Assembly (NCBI RefSeq): GCF_001430825.1
Contig: NZ_CP010535.1
Location: 2,460,501-2,524,500, forward strand
Source of the DNA: Sediminicola sp. YIK13
GTDB taxonomy: Bacteria; Bacteroidota; Bacteroidia; Flavobacteriales; Flavobacteriaceae
Direction: 5' to 3'
DNA length: 64,000 nt
Made by a program: the position numbers and the translations under genes. The notes under the pieces are model-generated. The model did not search any database. It was not told the origin of the DNA and saw only the letters and a program-made list of their open reading frames with translations. Positions 18,464-53,771 of this stretch are shown here, piece after piece. How positions within the stretch are numbered: the first letter of the stretch is position 1; each line of letters starts with the position of its first letter.

Positions 18464-20767
18464 ATGAAAAATATTTTTTTTACCTGTCTTTTCCTTTCTC
18501 TTTATTCTCTTTTTGCTCAAACTGGAACATTGGAGGGTAAGGTGATGTCGGATGGAGAGGCATTGCCATGGGCAACTATACAGCTCAAAAACTCCCAGAT
18601 TGGTACAACTACAGATGAATTGGGCAGATATAACCTAAAAGTACCATACGGCACATATTCCGTGGTATGCCAAAGTATAGGATACAAGTCCATAACAAAA
18701 GAGGTCACCATTACGAATCCCATGACAGTGACCTTGAACTTTCAACTAAAGGAAGATGTAATGGGTCTGGAACAGGTTGTTGTTACGGGTACTAAAACAG
18801 ACAAAAGGAGAACAGACTCCCCTGTGATCGTTAATTTAATCAATAGTAAAACCCTGGACAACGTAGTGGCAACCAATCTCTCAGAAGGCCTTCGATTTCA
18901 GCCTGGACTTCGGGTAGAAACCGATTGCCAAACCTGCAATTATACACAGCTCCGTATCAATGGACTCCAAGGAGGTTATTCGCAAATACTAATCAATGGG
19001 CGGCCCATCTTTAGCCCTTTAACCGGTTTATACGGCATGGAACAAATCCCTACCAATATGATAGAACGCATTGAAATAGTCCGTGGTGGTGTCTCAGCAC
19101 TTTATGGGTCCAGTGCTATTGGAGGGACCGTTAACGTAATTACAAAGATTCCCAGAGAAAACGATTATAGCATTACATATACCTATCAAAATCCGGGCAA
19201 CAACTCTAACGACCATCTTCTCGTAGGAAATACAACGGTCGTAAACACAGAAAGGAATGCCGGGGCCACCTTTTTCCTCAGCAAAAGGGACCGTGACACC
19301 TATGATCATAATGGTGATAATTTTTCAGAATTACCTCAGCTGAAAAACAATTCTTTTGGCGCCAACTTTTTTTACCTTCCTCAAAAGAACCAGAAACTAG
19401 AAGCTAGTATAAGCAGCATTAACGAATATAGGTACGGAGGGGAAATGGTCGACAAAGCCGCCCATCTGGCGCAACAGTCAGAAGAAAGGACGCATAATGT
19501 AATAATGGGAAGTCTTGATTATCAAATTAATTTTAACGAAGAGAAAAGTGCCCTCATATTATACTATGGGGGGCAACACACAAACAGAGATCATTACACG
19601 GGCATAATCCCAGATGACGAACCTGAGTTGAGCCAATTTATGGCTAATCCGCCTTATGGCATTTCCGACGTAACCACCCACCAGGGTGGTGCCCAATTTA
19701 ACCATAGGTTCAATGAATTTCTTGGAGGAACAACCGTAGTTACCATGGGCAGCGAATTTGTTTATGATGATGTTCTGGATATTATTGAAGCCTATAATTA
19801 CAAAATAGACCAGACAACGAGAAACCTTAGTGGTTTTGTACAGAATGATTGGGAAGTTACACCAGAATTGAATTTTCTCTCCGGATTTAGAATAGACCAA
19901 CACAACCTAGTTGATAGGACCATAATAAGTCCAAGACTCTCTTTATTGTACAAATGGAACAAGGAGACCCAATTTAGATTGGGATGGGGCACCGGCTTTA
20001 GGGCACCCCAAGCCTTTGACACCGATTTGCACATTGCCTTTGCAGGTGGCGGTATTTCGCGAATATCCCTTGCCGAGACCCTAGAGGAGGAACGCTCCAA
20101 TAGCTATACGGCATCCGTCAATTACGATAAGGCCAATGAACATTTTATTATAGGTTTTACCTTAGAAGGGTTCTACACCCATTTAAGAGATGCCTTTTAT
20201 CTTTTTCCCTTGGGGGAAGATCAATTTGGGGAACGATTCGAAAAAAGAAATGGAAGCGGTGCCACGGTGAAGGGCATCACTTTGGAAACAAGGGCTAATT
20301 TTGATTATTTGTTACAGATTGAAACAGGGCTTACCCTTCAATCGAGTCGATTTGACGATGCGGTAGAAAACATTGAAGGTTTGGAAGCAAAAAGAGAGTT
20401 CCTAAGAACCCCAAATAATTATGGTTACGCCACCCTTACCTACACCCCTACAAAAGCATTCAGCGCCAGCGCCAACTTAGTATATACCGGGCCCATGGAG
20501 TTGATCCATTTTGGTGGGGAAGGAACAGGACAGACCATTGATGAATACACCAGGTCTCCTTCTTTTACGGAATTGAGCCTAAGACTGGGGTACGATTTTG
20601 AATTCGAAAAAACCAAGACGGGCATAGAGGTATTTGGTGGGGTGAAAAATTTGACCAATGCCTATCAGGACGATTTCGATATCGGAAAAAACAGGGATAG
20701 TAATTACGTATACGGACCAGGAGCACCTAGGACCTTGTTTCTTGGAGTTAGATTTAAATCCTTATAA
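18464..20767 (+). CDS. TonB-dependent receptor, probably for metal or a metal chelate
   Basis: This 767-residue outer-membrane importer has a signal peptide to residue 19 (LYSLFAQ), then a carboxypeptidase-like domain (TLEGKVMSDGEALPWATIQLK, to about 97). A plug follows (EQVVVTGTKTDKRRTDSPV, then LRINGLQGGYSQILINGRPIFS and IERIEIVRGGVSALYGSSAIGGTVNVITK) and then a 22-strand-type barrel ending RTLFLGVRFKSL. The plug contains a CQTC pair (DCQTCNYTQ) that may form a disulphide or bind metal. The divergent MntR-type operon and shared operator argue for Mn, Zn or Fe or a chelate. The substrate is inferred. The thioredoxin-like gene follows after two bases. Confidence 0.9.
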   Translation: MKNIFFTCLFLSLYSLFAQTGTLEGKVMSDGEALPWATIQLKNSQIGTTTDELGRYNLKVPYGTYSVVCQSIGYKSITKEVTITNPMTVTLNFQLKEDVMGLEQVVVTGTKTDKRRTDSPVIVNLINSKTLDNVVATNLSEGLRFQPGLRVETDCQTCNYTQLRINGLQGGYSQILINGRPIFSPLTGLYGMEQIPTNMIERIEIVRGGVSALYGSSAIGGTVNVITKIPRENDYSITYTYQNPGNNSNDHLLVGNTTVVNTERNAGATFFLSKRDRDTYDHNGDNFSELPQLKNNSFGANFFYLPQKNQKLEASISSINEYRYGGEMVDKAAHLAQQSEERTHNVIMGSLDYQINFNEEKSALILYYGGQHTNRDHYTGIIPDDEPELSQFMANPPYGISDVTTHQGGAQFNHRFNEFLGGTTVVTMGSEFVYDDVLDIIEAYNYKIDQTTRNLSGFVQNDWEVTPELNFLSGFRIDQHNLVDRTIISPRLSLLYKWNKETQFRLGWGTGFRAPQAFDTDLHIAFAGGGISRISLAETLEEERSNSYTASVNYDKANEHFIIGFTLEGFYTHLRDAFYLFPLGEDQFGERFEKRNGSGATVKGITLETRANFDYLLQIETGLTLQSSRFDDAVENIEGLEAKREFLRTPNNYGYATLTYTPTKAFSASANLVYTGPMELIHFGGEGTGQTIDEYTRSPSFTELSLRLGYDFEFEKTKTGIEVFGGVKNLTNAYQDDFDIGKNRDSNYVYGPGAPRTLFLGVRFKSL

Positions 20768-43344: not shown

Positions 43345-43376
43345 AAAAATCAGGCGCTTTTAGGTGCCTGATTTTT
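43345..43376 (+). terminator. Intra-operon hairpin between pstS and pstC
   Basis: Perfect 11-bp arms AAAAATCAGGC / GCCTGATTTTT flank a ten-base loop, and the T-rich arm serves as the tail. It lies 18 bases after pstS and 20 bases before the pstC ATG, so it is a partial terminator or mRNA stabiliser within the operon. Confidence 0.78.
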
Positions 43377-43396
43377 ACTATGTAAAATCATCATAC

Positions 43397-44275
43397 ATGC
43401 GTAAGATTAAAGAACTTATAATTGAGAAATCGCTTTTAACAAGCGCCTTGATTACGATTGCCGTTACCATAGGTATCATTTTGGTTCTTTCCATTGAAGC
43501 AGTGCAATTCTTTAGCGAGGTGTCTCTCTTTGATTTTTTCACGGATACACAATGGACCCCTTTGTTTACGGAAAAACACTTTGGAATTCTTCCTCTTCTC
43601 TCGGGAACCTTGTTAACATCTTTTATTGCCATTGCGGTGGCTTTGCCCATTGGGCTTACTATAAGTATCTACCTAAGCGAATACGCCCCAAGGAATTTCA
43701 GGAAAACTGTAAAGCCCTTATTAGAACTTTTGGCTTCGATACCAACTGTGGTTTACGGTTTTTTTGCCTTAATTGTGGTGACTCCTTTTTTACAGGAATT
43801 TATCCCCAATCTTGCAGGCTTCAATTCCCTTTCTGCGGGAATTGTAATGGGAATAATGATTATACCCTATATCTCCTCCATTAGTGAGGATGCGTTACAC
43901 GCAGTACCGGCTTCCTTGAGGGAGGCATCATACGGCATGGGGGCCACCAAACTACAAACGGCATTTAAGGTAATTGTGCCCGCGGCATCCTCGGGTATAA
44001 TCGTTTCTATAATCTTGGCCATTTCCAGGGCGATTGGGGAAACAATGATTGTTGCCATTGCCGCAGGTCAGCAACCTCGATTGACCTTAGACCCGACAGT
44101 TCCTGTGGAAACTATTACCGCCTATATTGTTCAGGTCAGTTTGGGAGATGTGCAACATGGTTCCTTGGAATACAGAACCATCTTTGCCGCAGGAATCACT
44201 CTGTTTGTATTTACATTTTTGTTAAATACATTGAGTTATAGAATTAGAAAAAAATACCAGGAGAAATATGAATAA
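43397..44275 (+). CDS. pstC: Phosphate ABC transporter permease PstC
   Basis: This encodes about 292 residues from the ATG at 43397. An upstream frame to 43364 runs over the hairpin and is rejected. Six membrane helices are visible, with the PstC signature LLELLASIPTVVYGFFALIVVTPFLQ and the coupling loop SISEDALHAVPASLREASYGMGATKLQTAFKVIVPAASSGI. It pairs with PstA to form the phosphate channel. It overlaps pstA by eight bases. Confidence 0.94.
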   Translation: MRKIKELIIEKSLLTSALITIAVTIGIILVLSIEAVQFFSEVSLFDFFTDTQWTPLFTEKHFGILPLLSGTLLTSFIAIAVALPIGLTISIYLSEYAPRNFRKTVKPLLELLASIPTVVYGFFALIVVTPFLQEFIPNLAGFNSLSAGIVMGIMIIPYISSISEDALHAVPASLREASYGMGATKLQTAFKVIVPAASSGIIVSIILAISRAIGETMIVAIAAGQQPRLTLDPTVPVETITAYIVQVSLGDVQHGSLEYRTIFAAGITLFVFTFLLNTLSYRIRKKYQEKYE

Positions 44276-45122
44276 TATTCAGAAAAACAGGTGGAAAGAC
44301 CAAGCTTTCAAATATTGGGGTATTTTTTGCACCATTATTGGTCTGGTCTTGTTGGCCGTTTTCATCGGGGATATTCTTATCGATGGAATCCGTAGGATCG
44401 ATTGGGGCTTCATCACAGACCTTCCTTCCAGAAAGGCAGAGAATTCTGGTATCTACACAGCCCTTATGGGAAGTATTTGGATTTTAGTTTTAACTACCAT
44501 AATAGCCTTTCCAATTGGGGTGGCTGCTGGTATATATTTGGAAGAATATGCCAAAAACAATAAGTTGGCAGGTCTTTTGGAGATCAATATATCCAACCTG
44601 GCGGGTGTACCTTCCATAATATACGGTCTTCTGGGCCTAGAGGTCTTTGTGCGCATCATGAACCTTGGCGCCAGTGTACTAGCAGGAAGTTTAACACTGT
44701 CCCTACTGATCCTTCCCATTGTAATTGTGGCCACCAGAGAAGCAATTAAAGCGGTCCCAAAATCCATTAAAGATGCTTCTTATGCTTTGGGAGCGTCTAA
44801 ATGGCAAACTATTTGGCACCAAATTTTACCAGCTTCAGGCGGGGGCATCCTCACGGGGGTTATCTTAGCACTATCCAGAGCAGTTGGGGAAACAGCGCCA
44901 CTCATCGTGGTTGGGGCCCTGGCATATGTACCCTTCGCACCCAGTAGTCCGATGGATGAGTTTTCTGTGATGCCGATTCAAATATTCAATTGGATATCTC
45001 GACCTCAATCCGGGTTTATAGAAAACGCCGCTGCGGCTATCATTATATTATTGGGCATCACTTTTATCATGAATGGTATTGCGGTGTACTTTAGAAACAA
45101 ATGGCAGAAGAAATGGAAATAA
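44268..45122 (+). CDS. pstA: Phosphate ABC transporter permease PstA
   Basis: This 284-residue protein has six membrane helices and the segments [23 protein letters not shown] and [70 protein letters not shown], the PstA coupling region. It starts eight bases inside pstC and runs up to or over the start of pstB, in the order usual for pstSCAB. Confidence 0.94.
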
Positions 45123-45940
45123 GTATGGAAAATCCTATAAAAGAGAATATGGTATTAGATAGCGTTATAGACCCATCTTTAAAAAAGATACCTAAGATTG
45201 AAGCCAAGAAAATAAAAGTTTGGTATGATGATTTCAATGCTATAAAAGGCATTGATATGACCATCAAGCCAAATACTGTAACTGCATTCATAGGTCCATC
45301 TGGCTGCGGTAAATCTACCTTTTTGCGTTTGTTCAACAGAATGAACGATTATGTGGATGGCTTCAGTATGGAAGGAAAAATAAAGATCAACGGCAACAAC
45401 ATCTACAAGAAAAATGTAAATGTTGAGGAACTGCGTAAGGAAGTAGGAATGGTTTTCCAAAAACCAAACCCCTTTCCAAAATCTATTTTCGACAATGTAG
45501 CCTATGGTTTAAGGATACAGGGCATCACAGATAAGAAATTTATACAAGAGCGCGTTGTTTCCTCCTTGCAGCAAGTTGGACTTTGGGAAGAGGTAAAGGA
45601 TGATTTAAAAAAATCCGGTCTCGCTCTTTCCGGTGGACAGCAACAAAGGCTATGCATTGCGCGAACTTTGGCAGTAGAGCCATCCATCATTTTAATGGAT
45701 GAGCCCACTTCTGCCCTTGATCCAATTTCCACGGCAAAAATCGAGGAACTTATTTTTCAGTTAAAGGAAAAATACACGATTATCATCGTAACCCATAACA
45801 TGCAACAAGCCGGTAGGATCAGTGATTATACTGCTTTTTTCTATCTTGGTGAACTTATTGAGTACAATAAGACTAAAAACATCTTTACTAACCCAGAAAA
45901 ACAACAAACCGAAAACTACATTACCGGTAGGTTCGGATAA
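45101..45940 (+). CDS. pstB: Phosphate ABC transporter ATP-binding protein
   Basis: This encodes about 279 residues. Walker A is GPSGCGKST (65-73 from this start), with the signature [16 protein letters not shown] and Walker [15 protein letters not shown], the standard PstB motifs. The start is uncertain: the ATG at 45101 overlaps pstA by 22 bases, and ATGs at 45113 and 45125 (two bases after the pstA stop) are equally usable because the first ~30 residues are not conserved. It is followed after 11 bases by phoU. Confidence 0.93.
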
Positions 45941-45951
45941 AACATAGTAAT

Positions 45952-46614
45952 ATGGCAAATGCTATTTACCAAAGGGAAATCATAAACCAGTCGGGCTCCA
46001 AAATGCTAACGCTGTGCAAAAGTCAACTTGAAAAAGCCAAGGTGGCTTTTAGGGAGCACGATAGTGATTTGGCGGAAGAGGTCATTAATACGGAGAACAG
46101 GGTGAATGCCCTGGATCTAAAAATTGAAGAGGATTGTGAAAAATTCTTAGCTCTCTACAATCCGGTGGCCATTGACTTGCGGTTTATTATGGCCGTGAGA
46201 AAAATCAATTTTGATTTGGAAAGAATTGCTGATCACGCCTATAGTATCTCCAAGTACGTGGTGGATCTGGACGAACCCATTGAGCCCCATCTTTTTGAAA
46301 AATTAGAATTTGAAAAAATGTACGCCACCATCTCCACTATGTTTGAGCATATTACCACGGCATACGAGGAGAAAGATGTAAAAGCGGCCAGAAAAGTCTT
46401 TAAAAAAGATAAGATCTTGGATCAGATCAATAGGGAGTCCTTTTCTATTATTGAGGAAGAGATCAGGAAGGACAGCAAGGTGATCAGACAGTCCCTGATC
46501 TTATTCTCAGTAGTCAAAAAACTGGAACGCGTGGGTGATTTGATGAAAAATATTGCCGAAGAAGTAATTTTTTACATCGATGCCGAGGTCCTAAAACACA
46601 AAAGAAAAAAATAA
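45952..46614 (+). CDS. phoU: Phosphate transport system regulator PhoU
   Basis: This 220-residue all-helical protein has the duplicated PhoU fold: EVINTENRVNALDLKIEEDCEKFLALYNPVAIDLRFIMAVRKINFDLERIADHAYSI in the first half and FSVVKKLERVGDLMKNIAEEVIFYIDAEVLK in the second. The E/DxxxD metal clusters are visible. PhoU restrains Pst transport and phosphate signalling. It is last in the pst operon and is followed by a terminator. Confidence 0.93.
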   Translation: MANAIYQREIINQSGSKMLTLCKSQLEKAKVAFREHDSDLAEEVINTENRVNALDLKIEEDCEKFLALYNPVAIDLRFIMAVRKINFDLERIADHAYSISKYVVDLDEPIEPHLFEKLEFEKMYATISTMFEHITTAYEEKDVKAARKVFKKDKILDQINRESFSIIEEEIRKDSKVIRQSLILFSVVKKLERVGDLMKNIAEEVIFYIDAEVLKHKRKK

Positions 46615-46741: not shown

Positions 46742-49012
46742 ATGGATAATATTTACTTGCTAATGATTATTGCCCTTGCCTTTCTGGCCGTGGCCGATTT
46801 GGTAGTTGGTGTCAGTAATGATGCGGTGAATTTCTTAAATTCTGCCATAGGATCAAAAGCCATTTCCTTTAGGACCATCATGATCGTTGCCAGTTTGGGA
46901 ATAGCTATTGGAGCCATTTTCTCTAGCGGGATGATGGAAGTTGCGAGAAAGGGAATTTTTAATCCAAGTGAATTTATGTTCAGTGAGATCATGATCATCT
47001 TCATGGCCGTGATGATCACCGATATTCTCTTGCTGGATTTCTTTAACACCGTGGGGATGCCCACCTCCACGACCGTTTCCATTGTATTTGAGCTTTTAGG
47101 TGCTGCGGTTGCCATGGCCTTTATTAAAGTAGCCGCCGATACAGGTAATTATGTAGATGTATATACCCATATCAACACCTCTAAAGCTACTGAAATTATC
47201 GTAGGGATACTCTTATCGGTAGTCATAGCCTTTTCTATAGGTGCCATAGTGCAGTATTTCTCCAGATTATTACTCTCTTTCGATTTTAGAAAGAAAGCGA
47301 AGTGGACCGTTGCCCTTTTTGGGGGTATCGCTTTAACTGCCATTACCTATTTTATACTGATAAAAGGCCTAAAAGGAGCCACTTTTGTGAGCGAGGATCT
47401 GCTCGCATTTATTAAGAACAATACCATACTTATCATATTGGGAAGCCTTGTTCTTTGGACCGTGGTCTCTTATTTGATCACTATCATTCTAAAGTTTGAT
47501 GTTTATAAACTAATCATAATCGTAGGTACGTTTGCCCTCGCCCTCGCATTTGCAGGGAATGACCTAGTGAATTTCATTGGGGTCCCTATTGCCGCATGGC
47601 AGTCTTTTGAAGCTTGGCAAGCCTCGGGTATTCCCGCTACCGAGTTTAGTATGGATGTTCTTGCGGAAAAGGTTCCTACGCCTACCTTCTTGCTCTTTGG
47701 GGCAGGTATGGTCATGGTCTTGACACTTTGGTTTTCCAAAAAAGCTCGTTATGTGACCCAAACCGAAATCAACCTCTCACGGGAAGGGGAGTCCAAGGAA
47801 CGTTTTCAGCCCAACTTTCTTTCAAGGGGAATTGTTAGGGCCGCTATGTTGGCTTCTCAATTTTCAAATTCCCTCTTGCCCAAAACTGTGCAAAAAAGGA
47901 TAGACGCAAATTTTGAAAAACCGGTCATTGCCCTTTCCAAGGACAAAACTTACGAAATGCCCGCATTTGATATGGTCCGTGCCGCTGTGAACCTAATGGT
48001 TGCCGGGGTATTGATCTCCATCGCCACATCCTACAAATTACCATTATCAACCACCTATGTTACCTTTATGGTAGCCATGGGTTCTTCCTTGGCCGATAGG
48101 GCCTGGGGGGCAGAAAGCGCGGTATATAGAGTAGCTGGGGTTTTGAATGTTATAGGAGGATGGTTCTTTACCGCCTTTATCGCATTTATATCTGCAGCCG
48201 TAATTGTTTACCTTATCAATATCCACGTACCTTCCATGGTAGCTATCCTTCTGTTGATCGCCATCTTCCTATTGGTACGGAACTATATTTCCCATAGCCA
48301 AAAATCTAAGGAGATAAAGGCGGAGGATAGTCTCAGAAAAGCAGAAAGTAGTTCTATACAAGGCGTTATTGAGGAAAGTGCCAATAATATTGCCAACGTC
48401 GTTAAAAGAGGGAACAAAATTTACACCAATACGATCAACGGACTTGCAAAACAAGACCTTGAGCTCCTCAAAAAGAACAAAAAAGGGGTGAATAAGCTGT
48501 CTGCCGAAGTTGATGAATTAAGGGATCATATCTTTTACTTCATTAAAAACCTTGACGAGGCCAGTGTCGGAGCAAGTAATTTCTATATCAACATTTTGGG
48601 TTATTTGCAGGATTTAGCCCAATCCTTGGAATACTTGACCAAAATTAGCCACAAGCATATCCATAATAACCATAAGAAATTAAAGTATAATCAGATAAAG
48701 GAGCTTAAAGAAATAGACATTAAAATCGATGAACTTTTTAGTGCAACCAAGGAAGTTTTTGATTCTCGTTCTTTTGAGCAAATAGGAGAGATCCTATCAA
48801 GCAAACAAGAATTACTGGATATGGTGTCCCAAAAGATTGAAAAGCAAGTGGAGAGGACGCGTACTGAGGAATCCAGTCCTAAAAACACCACTTTATACTT
48901 TACGTTGCTATTGGAAACAAAAGATATTATTGCAGCTACCACCAACTTATTGGAGTTGTATTATAAGGAGCACGACAGTTCTGTGATACCCGCCAAGTTG
49001 GATACCAAGTAA
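46742..49012 (+). CDS. Pit family inorganic phosphate transporter with PhoU-like C-terminal domain
   Basis: This 756-residue protein has a Pit/PiT membrane domain (about residues 1-515). The family repeats are GVSNDAVNFLNSAIGSKAIS near the N-terminus and FAGNDLVNFIGVPIAAW in the second half, with SLGIAIGAIFSSGMMEVARKGI and YKLPLSTTYVTFMVAMGSSLADRAW. Residues ~530-756 form a long helical cytosolic domain (EESANNIANVVKRGNKIYTNTINGLAKQDLELLKKNKKGVNKLSAEVDEL) that looks like PhoU. This is about 250 residues longer than a bare PitA. A TAGGTTTG string lies upstream at 46708-46715. It ends at a perfect 16-bp hairpin. Confidence 0.92.
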   Translation: MDNIYLLMIIALAFLAVADLVVGVSNDAVNFLNSAIGSKAISFRTIMIVASLGIAIGAIFSSGMMEVARKGIFNPSEFMFSEIMIIFMAVMITDILLLDFFNTVGMPTSTTVSIVFELLGAAVAMAFIKVAADTGNYVDVYTHINTSKATEIIVGILLSVVIAFSIGAIVQYFSRLLLSFDFRKKAKWTVALFGGIALTAITYFILIKGLKGATFVSEDLLAFIKNNTILIILGSLVLWTVVSYLITIILKFDVYKLIIIVGTFALALAFAGNDLVNFIGVPIAAWQSFEAWQASGIPATEFSMDVLAEKVPTPTFLLFGAGMVMVLTLWFSKKARYVTQTEINLSREGESKERFQPNFLSRGIVRAAMLASQFSNSLLPKTVQKRIDANFEKPVIALSKDKTYEMPAFDMVRAAVNLMVAGVLISIATSYKLPLSTTYVTFMVAMGSSLADRAWGAESAVYRVAGVLNVIGGWFFTAFIAFISAAVIVYLINIHVPSMVAILLLIAIFLLVRNYISHSQKSKEIKAEDSLRKAESSSIQGVIEESANNIANVVKRGNKIYTNTINGLAKQDLELLKKNKKGVNKLSAEVDELRDHIFYFIKNLDEASVGASNFYINILGYLQDLAQSLEYLTKISHKHIHNNHKKLKYNQIKELKEIDIKIDELFSATKEVFDSRSFEQIGEILSSKQELLDMVSQKIEKQVERTRTEESSPKNTTLYFTLLLETKDIIAATTNLLELYYKEHDSSVIPAKLDTK

Positions 49013-49210: not shown

Positions 49211-49717
49211 ATGAAAAATATATTATTGGGTTTATTTGTTTTTGGTCTCACCAGCCAAGGGTTTTCTCAAATTGTAAAGACTGAAGAATTATCAGAGGTG
49301 GTGGTTACAGCAGTGAATTATAAATACCTAAATGCCACTACCAATGAGGAGGAAGCCCTTCCGGTAAAAATGCTGGAACGTCAGGCCGCGGCCTATAACA
49401 TCAAGGAATCTGAATTGTATAGTGATGAATATGATTATTATACCGTTTCCTTTTTTATTCCAGACGGGAAAATAGTTGCAGTTTACAATGCAGACGGCCA
49501 GATCACTAGGACCATTGAGAAGTTCAAAAATGTGAAACTTCCCGAAACAGTAAATAAAGCCGTTATGGAAAGGTTTCCTAATTGGATAGTTGAATCCGAT
49601 GTATATTTAGTGAGCTATAGTGATGATAAAGGAGCCAAAAAAACCTACAAATTGAAATTAAAGAATGGTGACGAACGAATGAGGGTGAAAATTGATGAAA
49701 CAGGAACTTTTCTTTAA
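49211..49717 (+). CDS. Small exported PepSY-like protein with TonB-box-like motif (paralogue A)
   Basis: This 168-residue protein has a signal peptide of about 19 residues (GLTSQGFSQ). Directly after it comes KTEELSEVVVTAVNYKYL, where SEVVVTA matches the EVVVTA stretch that precedes the plug of TonB receptors in Bacteroidota. The rest is an alpha/beta domain with FFIPDGKIVAVYNADGQITRTIEKFKNVKLPE and FPNWIVESDVYLVSY, the PepSY-like BLIP-type pattern (two repeats of a helix and a sheet). A paralogue lies at 53259-53771. The function is not known. Confidence 0.8.
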   Translation: MKNILLGLFVFGLTSQGFSQIVKTEELSEVVVTAVNYKYLNATTNEEEALPVKMLERQAAAYNIKESELYSDEYDYYTVSFFIPDGKIVAVYNADGQITRTIEKFKNVKLPETVNKAVMERFPNWIVESDVYLVSYSDDKGAKKTYKLKLKNGDERMRVKIDETGTFL

Positions 49718-49743
49718 AAAGCACAAGATTTAAATAGGATATG

Positions 49744-49769
49744 GCCCGGCATTGTAAGCCGGGCTTTAG
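49744..49769 (+). terminator. Terminator of PepSY-like gene A
   Basis: Perfect 7-bp GC-rich arms GCCCGGC / GCCGGGC with a seven-base loop are followed by TTTAGTTATTTT. It may also stop the convergent metalloprotease transcript. Confidence 0.68.
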
Positions 49770-49789
49770 TTATTTTCTACTTCTTGCCA

Positions 49790-52288
49790 TTATTTACCAG
49801 GCTCCAATAGCTGATCTATTCTTGCGATAGCATCCTCGTAATGATACCTAGTAATCGTATTTACCGATCCGTTTTTTGCCGACTGCAACCTACTTCTCAA
49901 CGTTTTGAGCTCCCCCCTAACCAAAGAATGAACATCTGAAGTGCTCACGTCAAAAACAAAGGCACTTTCAAAGTCGGAGCGATTGTTTCTTTTCTCCGGT
50001 CCTTTATCTGTCATCAAATAGGCCATCCTATCCAAATACGTGCGTTGCAGGTTTCTGCGGAAAATATCCACATTGGAGCCTCTCCCCATTTCACTCCACA
50101 GCCCGGTCCTGAGATCCTTTAACATATCTAAAGCACTGTACATACTTACCTCAGTGGTTTCTGCGTCCATCATTCTCCCAATCCTATCAAAACTTAGCAG
50201 ATTGTTAATATGTCTTTCCTGCACTTTTCTTAGTCCCTCGAAATATCCCGCATGGTCTATATTCAATAGTATATTCTTATCTATGAGCCAAGATGGAGTT
50301 GAAAATATATTCAACTGTAACCAGACCATGGATGACTTCTGTACTTCTGGTGAAACATGCATAAAAACATACCCTTCCTGATCTGGAGTTTTAAGATTTT
50401 CATAAACACCTCCAATATTGGTGACCACATGCCCTACGTACCTACTATAAACGCTCAACAATTCGCCGTATAGTTCTTCCAAGTCACTGTAATCATTGGT
50501 CTGGTCCGAGGTCCAACTTTTAAGGTTCTGTGCAACGTACTGTAAATTCTTCAGCCCGTAATCCCCAGCTTTGATTGGATCATTTCCAATGCTTTCTGTC
50601 TGTGATTGTGGATCAAATCTACTGGATTGTCTACCAAACTTGAATTTGGGATCCATTTCGTGTTTACGAATCCACTCATTCAAAGTGTCTTTTTCCATTT
50701 CTTTGGATGTAGCACTTGGAATTACCCTATAACCCCAATTGGTGGCATAGTGATCGTAAGGGCCAATTTGACGAATGAACCTGATATTCTCATCCTCTGG
50801 TTGTGCCACATAATTATATCGCGCATAATCCATAATACTCGCCGCTATTCCGTTTTCTTGGGTAAATGCTCCATTTCGCAAAGAATCAACAGGGTAGGCA
50901 TAGCTTGCAGCCATATTATGGGGAAAACCTAGTGCATGTCCTACTTCATGTGCAATTACCATACGCATCATCTCCCCTATTTCGCCTTCCGGGGTATTCA
51001 GTGTCCTTGCAGAGGGATTTGCCGCACCTGTTTCCAACAAATACCTATTTCTGTAACTCCTCAAATGATTATGGTACCAAATGATATCGCTTTCAATAAT
51101 CTCTCCACTTCTAGGATCAGAAACACTGGGACCGGTTGCATTTCTTGTGGTACTGGCCACATATCTTACCACAGAATAGCGTACATCCTCTGGACTAAAT
51201 TCTGGATCTTCCTCCGCAGTAGGGGCGTCCTTCGCCAAAATTGCGTTTTTAAAACCTGCTGTTTCAAAGGGTTTTTGCCACTCCTCTATTCCTTGTTTGA
51301 TATACTCCCGCAAGTTTTCGGGCGTTCCCGGATCCAAATAATAAACTATAGGCTTAACGGGCTCTACCAATTCTCCCCTGGCATATGCCTCTGGATCTTT
51401 CGGCTCCAAGCGCCACCTTCTGATGTAGGTTTTTTCGTCCGCCTTCAATTCCTTGCTCCCATAATCATATTGACTAACGGAAAAGAACCCCACTCTTGGA
51501 TCAAAGGTTCTTGGTCTCATAGGTTCTTTGGGCAGTAATATCATAGACTGGTTCATCTGAAGACTAATGGATTCCAAATCAGAAAAGGATGGTGGTTCCG
51601 AGGCACTGTAAGTGAGATCCTGCTTTACCTCTATGTTCTCGGGAAAACTTTTGATCCCATTTATAAAACTTAGGGAAGATTCCAATTTCTTTACTTTGTA
51701 CTCCTTTCGCATTCTTGCCGAAAGACCGCTAATAGCCATCACATCTGTATTAAACAAAGAAGTCACATTTATAACAACGGCAGTAGAGTCCGTATTAAAT
51801 GCTTTTATATCAAAAGCGAAAAGGGTGGGCTCGTAGTTATTGACCACCACTGAATTATGGATAGCTTTGGTGCTATCGGCTACATTTGTATAGGACTTGA
51901 CTTTGAGTAGTATTTTATCCTGGAAGCGCGTCCATTGTACTACTTGTTCGTTGGTCTTAGAACCGGCATTGAAGTAACCTCCTCCCAATCCTTGGGGAAG
52001 TTGGGATATCCTACTCACCCATAACATTTCCTTCTTTAATTTATCGAAGGGTATTTCATAAAAATACTCCTCCTTAATTTTATGCACGGCAAAAAGGCCG
52101 GCATCCGTAATTGCATCTTTAGTTATGACATCACTATAGTTTTTGATGCCATTTTTATCTTTTGATTTTGTCGCATCATTGAAATTTTTGGGAACTGCAG
52201 CATCTTCATTTTTTGATGGTCTTTGGCCTTTTACTGTCAATGATAGAAGAAACAAAGGCAATAGTAGAAACGGTATTAATCTTTTCAT
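49790..52288 (-). CDS. Exported zinc-dependent metalloprotease (DUF5117/DUF5118/DUF4953 type)
   Basis: This 832-residue protein has a signal peptide (LLLPLFLLSLTVKGQ). It carries the extended zinc motif HEVGHALGFPHN (His447, Glu448, His451, His457), a metzincin-type HExxHxxGxxH arrangement, with an IMDYARYNYVAQPED Met-turn-like segment about 35 residues later. The N-terminal region (residues 25-300) matches DUF5117/DUF5118-type domains. Proteins of this class are periplasmic or surface metalloproteases; the substrate is unknown. It lies alone on the minus strand between two plus-strand genes with PepSY-like folds. Confidence 0.88.
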   Translation of the reverse strand: MKRLIPFLLLPLFLLSLTVKGQRPSKNEDAAVPKNFNDATKSKDKNGIKNYSDVITKDAITDAGLFAVHKIKEEYFYEIPFDKLKKEMLWVSRISQLPQGLGGGYFNAGSKTNEQVVQWTRFQDKILLKVKSYTNVADSTKAIHNSVVVNNYEPTLFAFDIKAFNTDSTAVVINVTSLFNTDVMAISGLSARMRKEYKVKKLESSLSFINGIKSFPENIEVKQDLTYSASEPPSFSDLESISLQMNQSMILLPKEPMRPRTFDPRVGFFSVSQYDYGSKELKADEKTYIRRWRLEPKDPEAYARGELVEPVKPIVYYLDPGTPENLREYIKQGIEEWQKPFETAGFKNAILAKDAPTAEEDPEFSPEDVRYSVVRYVASTTRNATGPSVSDPRSGEIIESDIIWYHNHLRSYRNRYLLETGAANPSARTLNTPEGEIGEMMRMVIAHEVGHALGFPHNMAASYAYPVDSLRNGAFTQENGIAASIMDYARYNYVAQPEDENIRFIRQIGPYDHYATNWGYRVIPSATSKEMEKDTLNEWIRKHEMDPKFKFGRQSSRFDPQSQTESIGNDPIKAGDYGLKNLQYVAQNLKSWTSDQTNDYSDLEELYGELLSVYSRYVGHVVTNIGGVYENLKTPDQEGYVFMHVSPEVQKSSMVWLQLNIFSTPSWLIDKNILLNIDHAGYFEGLRKVQERHINNLLSFDRIGRMMDAETTEVSMYSALDMLKDLRTGLWSEMGRGSNVDIFRRNLQRTYLDRMAYLMTDKGPEKRNNRSDFESAFVFDVSTSDVHSLVRGELKTLRSRLQSAKNGSVNTITRYHYEDAIARIDQLLEPGK

Positions 52289-52471
52289 GCGGGGGTAATT
52301 ATATTATCTTTCTCCTAAAATATAACTATTCAGAAGCTAATCCCGACTTTTTAAGGAACATTAACAAAATAAAGTCAAATATTTAGGCTTTTATTGTGTG
52401 CCACATCATCCAAAAAAATAGTTCAAATGTAAAAAATAGGTATCTTTTACATCTCTAAAACACCATATACT

Positions 52472-53182
52472 ATGTTGAGAATAATTTTTATTGTATTTAT
52501 TTCTTCGATTCATTTCTTGGGCCAATCCCAAGGTTTAACTGGTGATCAGCTGTTACAAAATGCAATTGCGTATCATGATCCAAATAATAATTGGCCAACA
52601 TTTAACTGGGTGTTTATGGTGACCATGGAAACACCTAAGAAAAGCGAAAGAAAGAGCAAGGTAAAGATCAACCTCCCAGAACAAGTATTTAGCTTAACTG
52701 TGAACCAAGAAGAAGTTTCACTTGAATACATCTTGAAAGGCAAAGACTGTAAATTACGATTAAATGGTGCTGAAGAAATTTCTGAGACACAAAAAAAAAC
52801 ATTTAATCTCAATTGTGATAGAGCCCTGATGATGAAAAATTATTACACCTACCTCTATGGGCTACCCATGAAATTAAAAGATCCTGGAACAATCATAGAC
52901 CCCAAGGTAAATCGCAGAAAATTTAAAAACAAAGAGTACTTGGTTCTGAAAGTTAACTATTCAGAAGATGTGGGAGGGGATTCCTGGTATTTCTATTTTG
53001 ACCCATTAACCTATGCCATGGAGATCTACCAATTTTTTCATGATGAATCTAAAAATGATGGCGAATACATCCTTTTATCAGGGGAAGAAACAATAAATAA
53101 CATTAAGATGCCAAAAACAAGGGCCTGGTACTATAACAAGGACAATGGCTACCTTGGAACAGATATACTATCTAAAGAATAA
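52472..53182 (+). CDS. DUF6503 exported protein
   Basis: This 236-residue protein has a signal peptide to about residue 20 (IHFLGQSQG). The body is a LolA-like half-barrel beta sheet: LLQNAIAYHDPNNNWPTFNWVFMVTMETPK and later NKEYLVLKVNYSEDVGGDSWYFYFDPLTYAMEIYQFFHDES. This matches the DUF6503 family, common in flavobacteria and without a known role. It follows a 183-base gap after the divergent metalloprotease and precedes PepSY-like paralogue B by 76 bases. Confidence 0.78.
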   Translation: MLRIIFIVFISSIHFLGQSQGLTGDQLLQNAIAYHDPNNNWPTFNWVFMVTMETPKKSERKSKVKINLPEQVFSLTVNQEEVSLEYILKGKDCKLRLNGAEEISETQKKTFNLNCDRALMMKNYYTYLYGLPMKLKDPGTIIDPKVNRRKFKNKEYLVLKVNYSEDVGGDSWYFYFDPLTYAMEIYQFFHDESKNDGEYILLSGEETINNIKMPKTRAWYYNKDNGYLGTDILSKE

Positions 53183-53258
53183 GGGAACTAACCTGTCTTA
53201 AAAATGACATTGCTCATAGCTTTTGTTACGGTATAAAGCTACTTTTAAACACTAAAAA

Positions 53259-53771
53259 ATGCACATGAAAATAGCAGTCGCCCTTCTTTTTGTTCTTATC
53301 CTGAATACCAATTTATGGGCCCAAGATCCTAAAACCGAAGAATTATCGGAGGTCGTTGTAACCGCTGTCAACTATAAATATCTAAGCAGTATTGATTCTA
53401 AAATGACACCTACCCCTGTTAAATTACTAGAGCGCAAAGTTGCAAGTTATAAGATAAAAAAAGATGATATTTTTGAAGATGAATATCCGTTTTACACCGT
53501 TTCCTTTTACATTCCCGAGGGTAAGATTGTAGCTGTATATGACGAAGAAGGCAAAATTCTAAGGACTATTGAAAGGTTTAAAAATCTGGATCTTCCAGAA
53601 GTGGTATTGCAATCCCTTGAAAAAAAATATCCCGGTTGGAAAATTGTTGACGACGTTTACCTAATAGACTATAACCATCAGAAAGGGGTAAATAGAACTT
53701 TTAAAATTAAATTACAGAAAAGAAAAAAGACCCTAAAGGTTAAATTGGACGAAAAAGGCAACTATCTATAA
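53259..53771 (+). CDS. Small exported PepSY-like protein with TonB-box-like motif (paralogue B)
   Basis: This 170-residue protein (alternative ATG at 53265) has a signal peptide ending LNTNLWAQ. As in paralogue A, KTEELSEVVVTAVNYKYL follows the cleavage site, and the fold continues with FYIPEGKIVAVYDEEGKILRTIERFKNLDLPE and YPGWKIVDDVYLIDY. The two paralogues share order, length and motif and differ mainly in the acidic loop after YKYL, so they arose by duplication. The last ten bases overlap the convergent nadD gene. Confidence 0.8.
   Translation: MHMKIAVALLFVLILNTNLWAQDPKTEELSEVVVTAVNYKYLSSIDSKMTPTPVKLLERKVASYKIKKDDIFEDEYPFYTVSFYIPEGKIVAVYDEEGKILRTIERFKNLDLPEVVLQSLEKKYPGWKIVDDVYLIDYNHQKGVNRTFKIKLQKRKKTLKVKLDEKGNYL

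Follow-up and report, generated by a model that had tools for sequence, protein, structure and literature searches.

In Bacteroidota many TonB-dependent receptors share few TonB proteins, and a 1992 work by Tuckman and Osburne is reportedly the reference for the pentapeptide ETVIV as an inhibitor of TonB action. As described in sections of PMC5413942, the TonB box of BtuB joins the TonB C-terminal domain by extending its sheet with one more strand, the BtuB box peptide has a KD of 9.4 µM with E. coli TonB, and free ETVIV peptide added to E. coli serves to stop TonB action. For the Bacteroides SusC protein Bt1763, an excerpt of PMC7782687 reports that growth on levan is normal only with the box VDEVVV, which in solution is flexible. 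Herein we describe a 64,000-nucleotide stretch of the Sediminicola sp. YIK13 genome (contig NZ_CP010535.1, positions 2,460,501 to 2,524,500, hereafter “the window”), in which the open reading frames of two small exported paralogues, PepA (168 amino acids) and PepB (170 amino acids), are 50% identical end to end and both contain LSEVVVTAVNYKYL immediately past the signal peptide. A sequence-only reading of the window had described them as PepSY-like proteins with a TonB-receptor-type EVVVTA motif; the pair, the place of the motif after the signal peptide, and the metalloprotease (Pfam DUF5118/DUF5117/DUF4953) and DUF6503 genes that the two copies flank were all recovered (Table 1).

The reading that we favour, at somewhat less than an even chance, is that PepA and PepB are BLIP/PepSY-like proteins of the periplasm that carry a receptor-type TonB box as a tag, dock on TonB with it and perhaps act as stress-linked attenuators. 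A soluble protein that naturally carries such a box would be an obvious candidate for controlling how access to TonB is shared or shut. A structural role of the same stretch would still be a warning against reading TonB boxes from short motifs.

Likeness of the N-termini to receptor TonB boxes

The N-termini of PepA and PepB look signal-peptide-like by eye and pass a crude export rule, and the common string KTEELSEVVVTAVNYKYL begins two residues past the cleavage point, which was placed by eye. A DNA pattern for EVVVTA has three matches across the 3.57-Mb genome (PepA, PepB and one SusC-type receptor), and the reversed pattern, used as a control, has none. The genome has 26 plug matches and three TonB C-terminal domains (E ≤1e-4), and a candidate TonB partner for PepA and PepB therefore exists. 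The 8-mer ahead of each of the 26 plug matches, picked by eye, served as the set of receptor boxes. The pattern L-x-E-V-x-[VIL] fits 21 of these 26 boxes (literal EVVVTA fits one), with L at position 1 in 25, E at position 3 in 23, V at position 4 in 25, mostly V or I at position 5, and V, I or L at position 6 in 25. Scored against a matrix made from the 26 boxes, the PepA and PepB stretches reach 20.7, the receptors themselves range from 4.5 to 22.5 when left out one at a time, and the best score outside the receptors and the family is 12.0, in nadD (residues 16–60 of 354 sampled genes).

At residues 21–55, L-x-E-V-x-[VIL] is present in 79 of the 149 family proteins defined below, against 0 of 86 other exported proteins (crudely predicted), while at residues 16–66 it is present in 6 of the 354 sampled genes, exported or not, PepA and PepB included. 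Among 88 family proteins with an NYKY-like motif, aligned without gaps on NYKY, the L, E and V of the core are found in 70, 70 and 67, position 5 is V in 57 or T in 15, and position 6 is V, I or L in 80. These proteins share the receptor preferences at most box positions; position 2 differs (S or P, against E or D in receptors), and deviations are partial at position 5 (T beside V, against V or I) and at position 8 (A, against G or A). Only a few residues of the mature protein precede the box, and by eye the same holds for three receptors without an N-terminal domain (L099, L103 and L108). At the level of sequence, PepA and PepB have a TonB box near the mature N-terminus. Judged by these comparisons, the likeness of the stretch to receptor TonB boxes exceeds chance, in keeping with the receptor-type motif that had been noticed.

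Searched with a single sequence, 4 of the 198 genomes examined in the class have the family; a 25-member profile recovers it from 109 of the 299 genomes in the same taxonomic family and from 19 of 395 in the phylum. Named matches come from Maribacter, Eudoraea, Spongiivirga, Cyclobacterium, Flavitalea and Segetibacter, among others. The 149 family proteins cover a part of the profile-search matches (the best ones and 60 further hand-chosen stretches) and include 29 proteins found with seed peptides, after the exclusion of six entries (a truncated copy and four distant PepSY-like proteins, of which one appeared twice); this set is biased, since VTAVNYKY was among the seed peptides behind the 29 proteins and the N-terminus was part of the profile. 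The invariance of EVVVTA across homologues, which the sequence-only reading had proposed to check, did not hold for the literal motif, which is carried by 24 of the 149 (PepA and PepB included), 20 of them within the 29 seed-found, biased proteins. Only two are among the 116 proteins that genome searches retrieved from other genomes, and the literal string was ruled out as the conserved unit on both counts. Elsewhere in the genome, a tandem of two more family members (C1:1144567 and C1:1145423) has LTGVTVKNMNSNYL and LIGVTVTPLNTTYL where PepA and PepB have the motif.

What is largely kept is the EV core, in one part of the family. The 116 genome-search proteins divide into 50 with an EV core, 11 with a T core (L-x-[EDNQ]-T-[VIL]-[IVL]), 39 with a looser form and 16 with none, and for the 57 of them that have an NYKY-like motif the corresponding counts are 42, 7, 7 and 1. 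T-core examples such as LPETVITV and LEETVISI resemble the pentapeptide ETVIV. On a tree of the domain only, made by a quick method from few columns and with many open forks, the NYKYL clade (n = 94; Shimodaira–Hasegawa-like approximate likelihood ratio test support 97) has 71 members with an EV core, 11 with a T core, 10 with a looser form and 2 with none; after clustering at 60% identity, 27 of 67 clusters have the EV core. In the 88 NYKY-type proteins the N, Y, K and Y are near-invariant and the L is found in 79, although this set was selected by an NYKY-like motif, so that conservation of the motif there is the selection criterion. By these alignments the box is mainly a feature of the NYKYL subfamily and drifts in the others.

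Fold and position of the box

Within the 168 and 170 residues of PepA and PepB, no match to the plug (PF07715, at E ≤1) or to the barrel (PF00593) was found, and Pfam recognised no receptor-like sequence beyond the box. Because the domain is a distant BLIP/PepSY-like fold with neither plug nor barrel, the two proteins are, on profile evidence, not receptors, and the suggested descent from a receptor found no support beyond the box. A passive relic, in which the N-terminus was copied by gene fusion from a receptor or a CarboxypepD_reg protein and the TonB-related role has since gone, is in line with the presence, in other proteins of the genome, of box-like stretches and even, by eye, of barrel-less modules that resemble a plug. 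Such a relic is nevertheless very improbable in our view, given that the core is kept in 71 of the 94 clade members, the named ones coming from six genera, and that nothing receptor-like was recognised past the box.

The domain itself was assigned from structure models. PepB scored 17.1 bits (E 0.007) against PF11396 (PepSY_like, DUF2874), below the gathering score of 28.3 bits, a relative, L030, scored 18.3 bits, and PepA had no match to this profile at E ≤1; a sequence-profile search of solved structures gave nothing significant (best E 0.49, 3u1w). The AlphaFold2 models, made from a 31-row alignment, are BLIP-like in fold (helix plus antiparallel strands, repeated) by their structure matches. 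The top eight Foldseek rows for PepB were BLIP-like, DUF2874 or related periplasmic chains (E 2e-4 to 5e-3, with the next row at 0.11; probability 1.00; TM-score on the query 0.40–0.43, for a model with a mean predicted local distance difference test score, pLDDT, of 64), the best of them from Bacteroidales (4fr9, 3u1w, 4k61, 4ipb and 4hbr). VIA gave Z 6–7 for both models, values that the tool itself rates as middling, and rows under about Z 5 were set aside. Since sequence profiles do not reach the solved structures, the family is, as far as the models go, a distant relative of PF11396 and not a member of it, and the label PepSY-like holds at the level of fold but not as a Pfam assignment.

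In the models the domain opens with a helix, from residue 50 in PepA and from residue 52 in PepB, and about 30 residues holding the box and NYKYL lie between signal peptide and domain. For BVU2987, an excerpt of PMC2954215 gives a signal peptide at residues 1–19 and a first repeat from residue 28; the box of PepA and PepB therefore lies in a longer leader than that of BVU2987, which is the single solved structure used in this comparison. Burial of the box in the sheet, named beforehand as the outcome that would speak against a docking motif, received conflicting answers: the region has a pLDDT <50 in both models, and is coil in PepB and a strand at residues 30–35 in PepA.

The low-confidence strand in the PepA model weighs against TonB docking and hints at a structural arm, in which LxEVxVxAxNYKYL would be an N-terminal β-strand that either fills out the BLIP/PepSY-like sheet or is exchanged with a partner subunit, its likeness to a box being that of an ordinary exposed edge strand. 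Several further observations point away from docking. Several untrimmed structure alignments begin at model residues 28–34 and may reach the box, those to 4fr9, 3due, 3db7 and 4ipb beginning at residues 28–31 of one model or the other. The NYKYL that directly follows the box is kept in the subfamily to a high degree, no less than the box itself, and a bare linker would have no need of it. Outside the NYKYL subfamily the box decays (EV core in 8, T core in 4, looser form in 32 and none in 15 of the 59 non-NYKY proteins of the genome-search set), and hydrophobic alternation persists in many members after the E and V are lost, which speaks for an arm. In addition, picking the receptor 8-mers by eye favours a tidy consensus. 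A structural arm nonetheless seems rather unlikely to us, as the L-x-E-V detail fits receptor boxes beyond mere alternation, the box has low pLDDT in both models, and the gap of about 30 residues between signal peptide and domain exceeds that of BVU2987 (excerpt of PMC2954215).

Gene neighbourhoods and possible roles

If the stretch does act as a TonB box, which is the part of our favoured reading to which we give about an even chance on the sequence evidence, the extended box would, after cleavage of the signal peptide, add as a β-strand to the TonB C-terminal domain in the manner of receptor boxes. A docked soluble protein would then compete with receptors for TonB, or would let TonB pull on the PepSY-like domain. 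More tentatively, the proteins would be made under stress or low energy and would damp TonB-dependent uptake; this attenuator role, which we regard as doubtful, is suggested by neighbouring genes for Hsp20, UspA, DnaK and Crp-type regulators.

Neighbour genes were searched for in 42 family loci of 3–18.5 kb each (588 kb in total), the PepA/PepB locus not being among them. At least one of six stress or regulator classes (Hsp20, UspA, a response regulator with Crp-type domains, a Crp/Fnr regulator, DnaK and phosphoribosyltransferase) was present in 18 of 24 loci outside the nadD locus (fetched as 14–18.5 kb and hand-chosen, one being the window genome's own second locus) and in 1 of 19 background stretches of 20 kb, where the classes were picked after the neighbourhoods had been seen and the background is that of the window genome only. 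Pfam confirmed one representative each for Hsp20, Usp, the Crp-type response regulator and phosphoribosyltransferase, and the DnaK and Crp/Fnr clusters were named by eye. Synteny is shared among L016/L114, among L126/L129, among L116–L119 and among L122/L123/L131/L141, and independent cases of a stress neighbour are therefore fewer, about six by our reading.

The choice of classes, the narrow background and the shared synteny all weigh against our favoured reading, and so do three further results. Proteins of the three TonB loci matched none of the 42 family loci (588 kb), and receptor matches were found in only 3 of the 42. Moreover, LxEVVV-type stretches also occur in other non-receptor exported proteins of this genome, mostly after a CarboxypepD_reg domain, and the motif alone therefore does not prove TonB coupling. 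Three CarboxypepD_reg proteins of about 250 amino acids have the boxes LDEVVVSP, LDEVVVRP and LEEVIVKP (L218:1248-1997, L218:2026-2766 and L142:11179-11958, all on the + strand); the small ones at 110059 and 110801 were judged by eye, and that of L142 has Pfam support. A box-like stretch is also present in a 528-amino-acid CarboxypepD_reg protein and in a DUF5686 protein (both by Pfam), and in L235, which is DUF5686-like by look. By eye, L221 (C1:839799-842799, −) is an exported DUF4139-like protein with an inserted CarboxypepD_reg domain, the box LEEVVVVG and a plug-like stretch without a barrel, and L238 (C1:3529405-3532405, −), a large macroglobulin-like protein cut at the end of its stretch, has LDEVIVSE and then a plug-like part near its C-terminus, again with no barrel. 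In the lipoprotein L237 the box-like stretch is apparently there by chance. Either TonB serves more than receptors, or the motif has further uses. The three small CarboxypepD_reg proteins are another candidate class of soluble box proteins.

Two other roles would follow from the neighbourhood or the fold. The gene for the metalloprotease sits between PepA and PepB, the sequence-only reading had suggested a test of its inhibition, and an inhibitory role has been put forward for PepSY and DUF2874 domains (PMC2954215), so that the pair might be dedicated inhibitors of this protease. This was rejected as our main reading, since none of the 42 family loci searched has a tblastn match to the protease (E ≤1e-5), and the PepSY genes there lie near nadD, DUF6503 or stress genes; it would also leave the box unexplained, and we judge it highly improbable. 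Alternatively, TonB could bind the box in order to draw the PepSY-like domain away from, or onto, a different target in the envelope (a peptidase, a lipoprotein or an outer-membrane protein), with no competition with receptors. The box evidence favours such an effector just as it does our favoured reading, the related BLIP is a protein-binding domain (as given in part of PMC2954215) and box–TonB pairs bear force (as given in part of PMC5413942), but no single neighbour is common to the family loci compared, the commonest non-family neighbour cluster being found in 7 of 31, and we consider the effector quite improbable.

Returning to docking on TonB with attenuation, its widest form would make the TonB box in Bacteroidota a portable docking tag of soluble periplasmic proteins as well as of receptors, with the NYKYL PepSY-like family as a dedicated class, linked to stress, whose members would occupy TonB and so throttle import across the outer membrane, and with the small CarboxypepD_reg, the DUF5686 and the plug-without-barrel box proteins in the same layer of control; in this breadth we think it unlikely.

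Other features of the loci concern the family's surroundings. DUF6503 has a tblastn match in 15 of the 42 loci. In Maribacter/Eudoraea-type genomes, 8 of 21 seed-found loci have a tandem pair of family genes, and the family gene lies near PHO4 and DUF6503, adjoining nadD-gmk where the contig extends that far; relatives' loci adjoining nadD often carry a Na/Pi-type gene as well. In the window, a PHO4 transporter with a long C-terminal extension (46742–49012, +) directly follows what by eye is pstC-pstA-pstB-phoU (43364–46614, +). A phosphate link was set aside, as PHO4 and Na/Pi-type neighbours were found almost only in Maribacter/Eudoraea-type loci next to nadD. At L141 (6568–7951, +) two tandem family members with a weaker box adjoin a Crp/Fnr-type regulator, a few genes from DnaK (by eye). 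Islands around the family gene at L116–L120, L127 and L132 contain various sets drawn from PfkB, UspA, phosphoribosyltransferase, pyruvate phosphate dikinase and a pyridoxamine-oxidase-like protein, and these may resemble dormancy regulons.

Table 1 Features of the PepA/PepB locus and of one receptor in the window (window positions).
Feature	Position	Strand	Basis
PepA, small exported PepSY/BLIP-like protein	49211–49717	+	Open reading frame; identity to PepB; AlphaFold2; BLIP-like/DUF2874 structure matches (Z 6–7)
PepA predicted signal peptide, 20 amino acids	49211–49270	+	Sequence, placed by eye
PepA TonB-box-like LSEVVVTA, residues 27–34	49289–49312	+	Score 20.7 against 26-receptor-box matrix
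PepA subfamily signature NYKYL, residues 36–40	49316–49330	+	Family alignment
PepA BLIP/PepSY-like domain, residues 50–168	49358–49714	+	AlphaFold2 model and structure matches
Met-zincin metalloprotease, DUF5118-DUF5117-DUF4953	49790–52288	−	Pfam; local neighbour between PepA and PepB, context not conserved
DUF6503 protein	52472–53182	+	Pfam; recurring neighbour, mainly in Maribacter/Eudoraea-type loci (tblastn, synteny)
PepB, second copy	53259–53771	+	Open reading frame; weak PF11396 match (E 0.007, below cut-off); AlphaFold2; Foldseek
PepB predicted signal peptide, 22 amino acids	53259–53324	+	Sequence, placed by eye
PepB TonB-box-like LSEVVVTA, residues 29–36	53343–53366	+	Score 20.7
PepB subfamily signature NYKYL, residues 38–42	53370–53384	+	Alignments
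PepB BLIP/PepSY-like domain, residues 52–170	53412–53768	+	Model and structure matches; first helix (52–63) of low confidence
TonB-dependent receptor, box LEQVVVTG, one of 26 yardsticks	18464–20767	+	Pfam Plug and barrel; same window

Comparison with described systems

A literature search on PepSY-like or BLIP-like proteins with a TonB box, a decoy role or the motif letters, with most subscription journals outside its reach, found no description of such proteins. The best structure matches of PepA and PepB are the DUF2874/PepSY_like (PF11396) and BLIP-like proteins of Bacteroidales (3due, which is BVU2987; 4fr9, which is BF1215; 4k61, 4ipb, 4hbr and 3u1w), which are exported, as PepA and PepB are predicted to be. 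PepA and PepB differ from them in a leader of about 30 residues (about 8 in BVU2987, going by the excerpt of PMC2954215) that carries the box-like stretch and NYKYL, and in a Pfam match that is below the cut-off for PepB and absent for PepA. With TonB-dependent receptors (Plug PF07715 and barrel, as in the SusC protein Bt1763) they have the box core in common, and its position past the signal peptide is by eye like that of the three receptors without an N-terminal domain, whereas PepA and PepB lack plug and barrel, have about 150 residues and are predicted to be soluble. The ETVIV pentapeptide is a free box that stops TonB action in E. coli (according to the sections of PMC5413942 cited above); it is a synthetic peptide acting on the E. 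coli TonB, while PepA and PepB are natural proteins whose candidate partner is a Bacteroidota TonB. The CarboxypepD_reg and DUF5686 non-receptors of the same genome, with LDEVVV-type stretches, are exported and have a box-like core as PepA and PepB do, but in them the box follows a CarboxypepD_reg domain, whereas members of the PepSY-like family have it by itself, past the signal peptide. Fold and motif are thus each known, and their combination in one small exported protein appears to be new.

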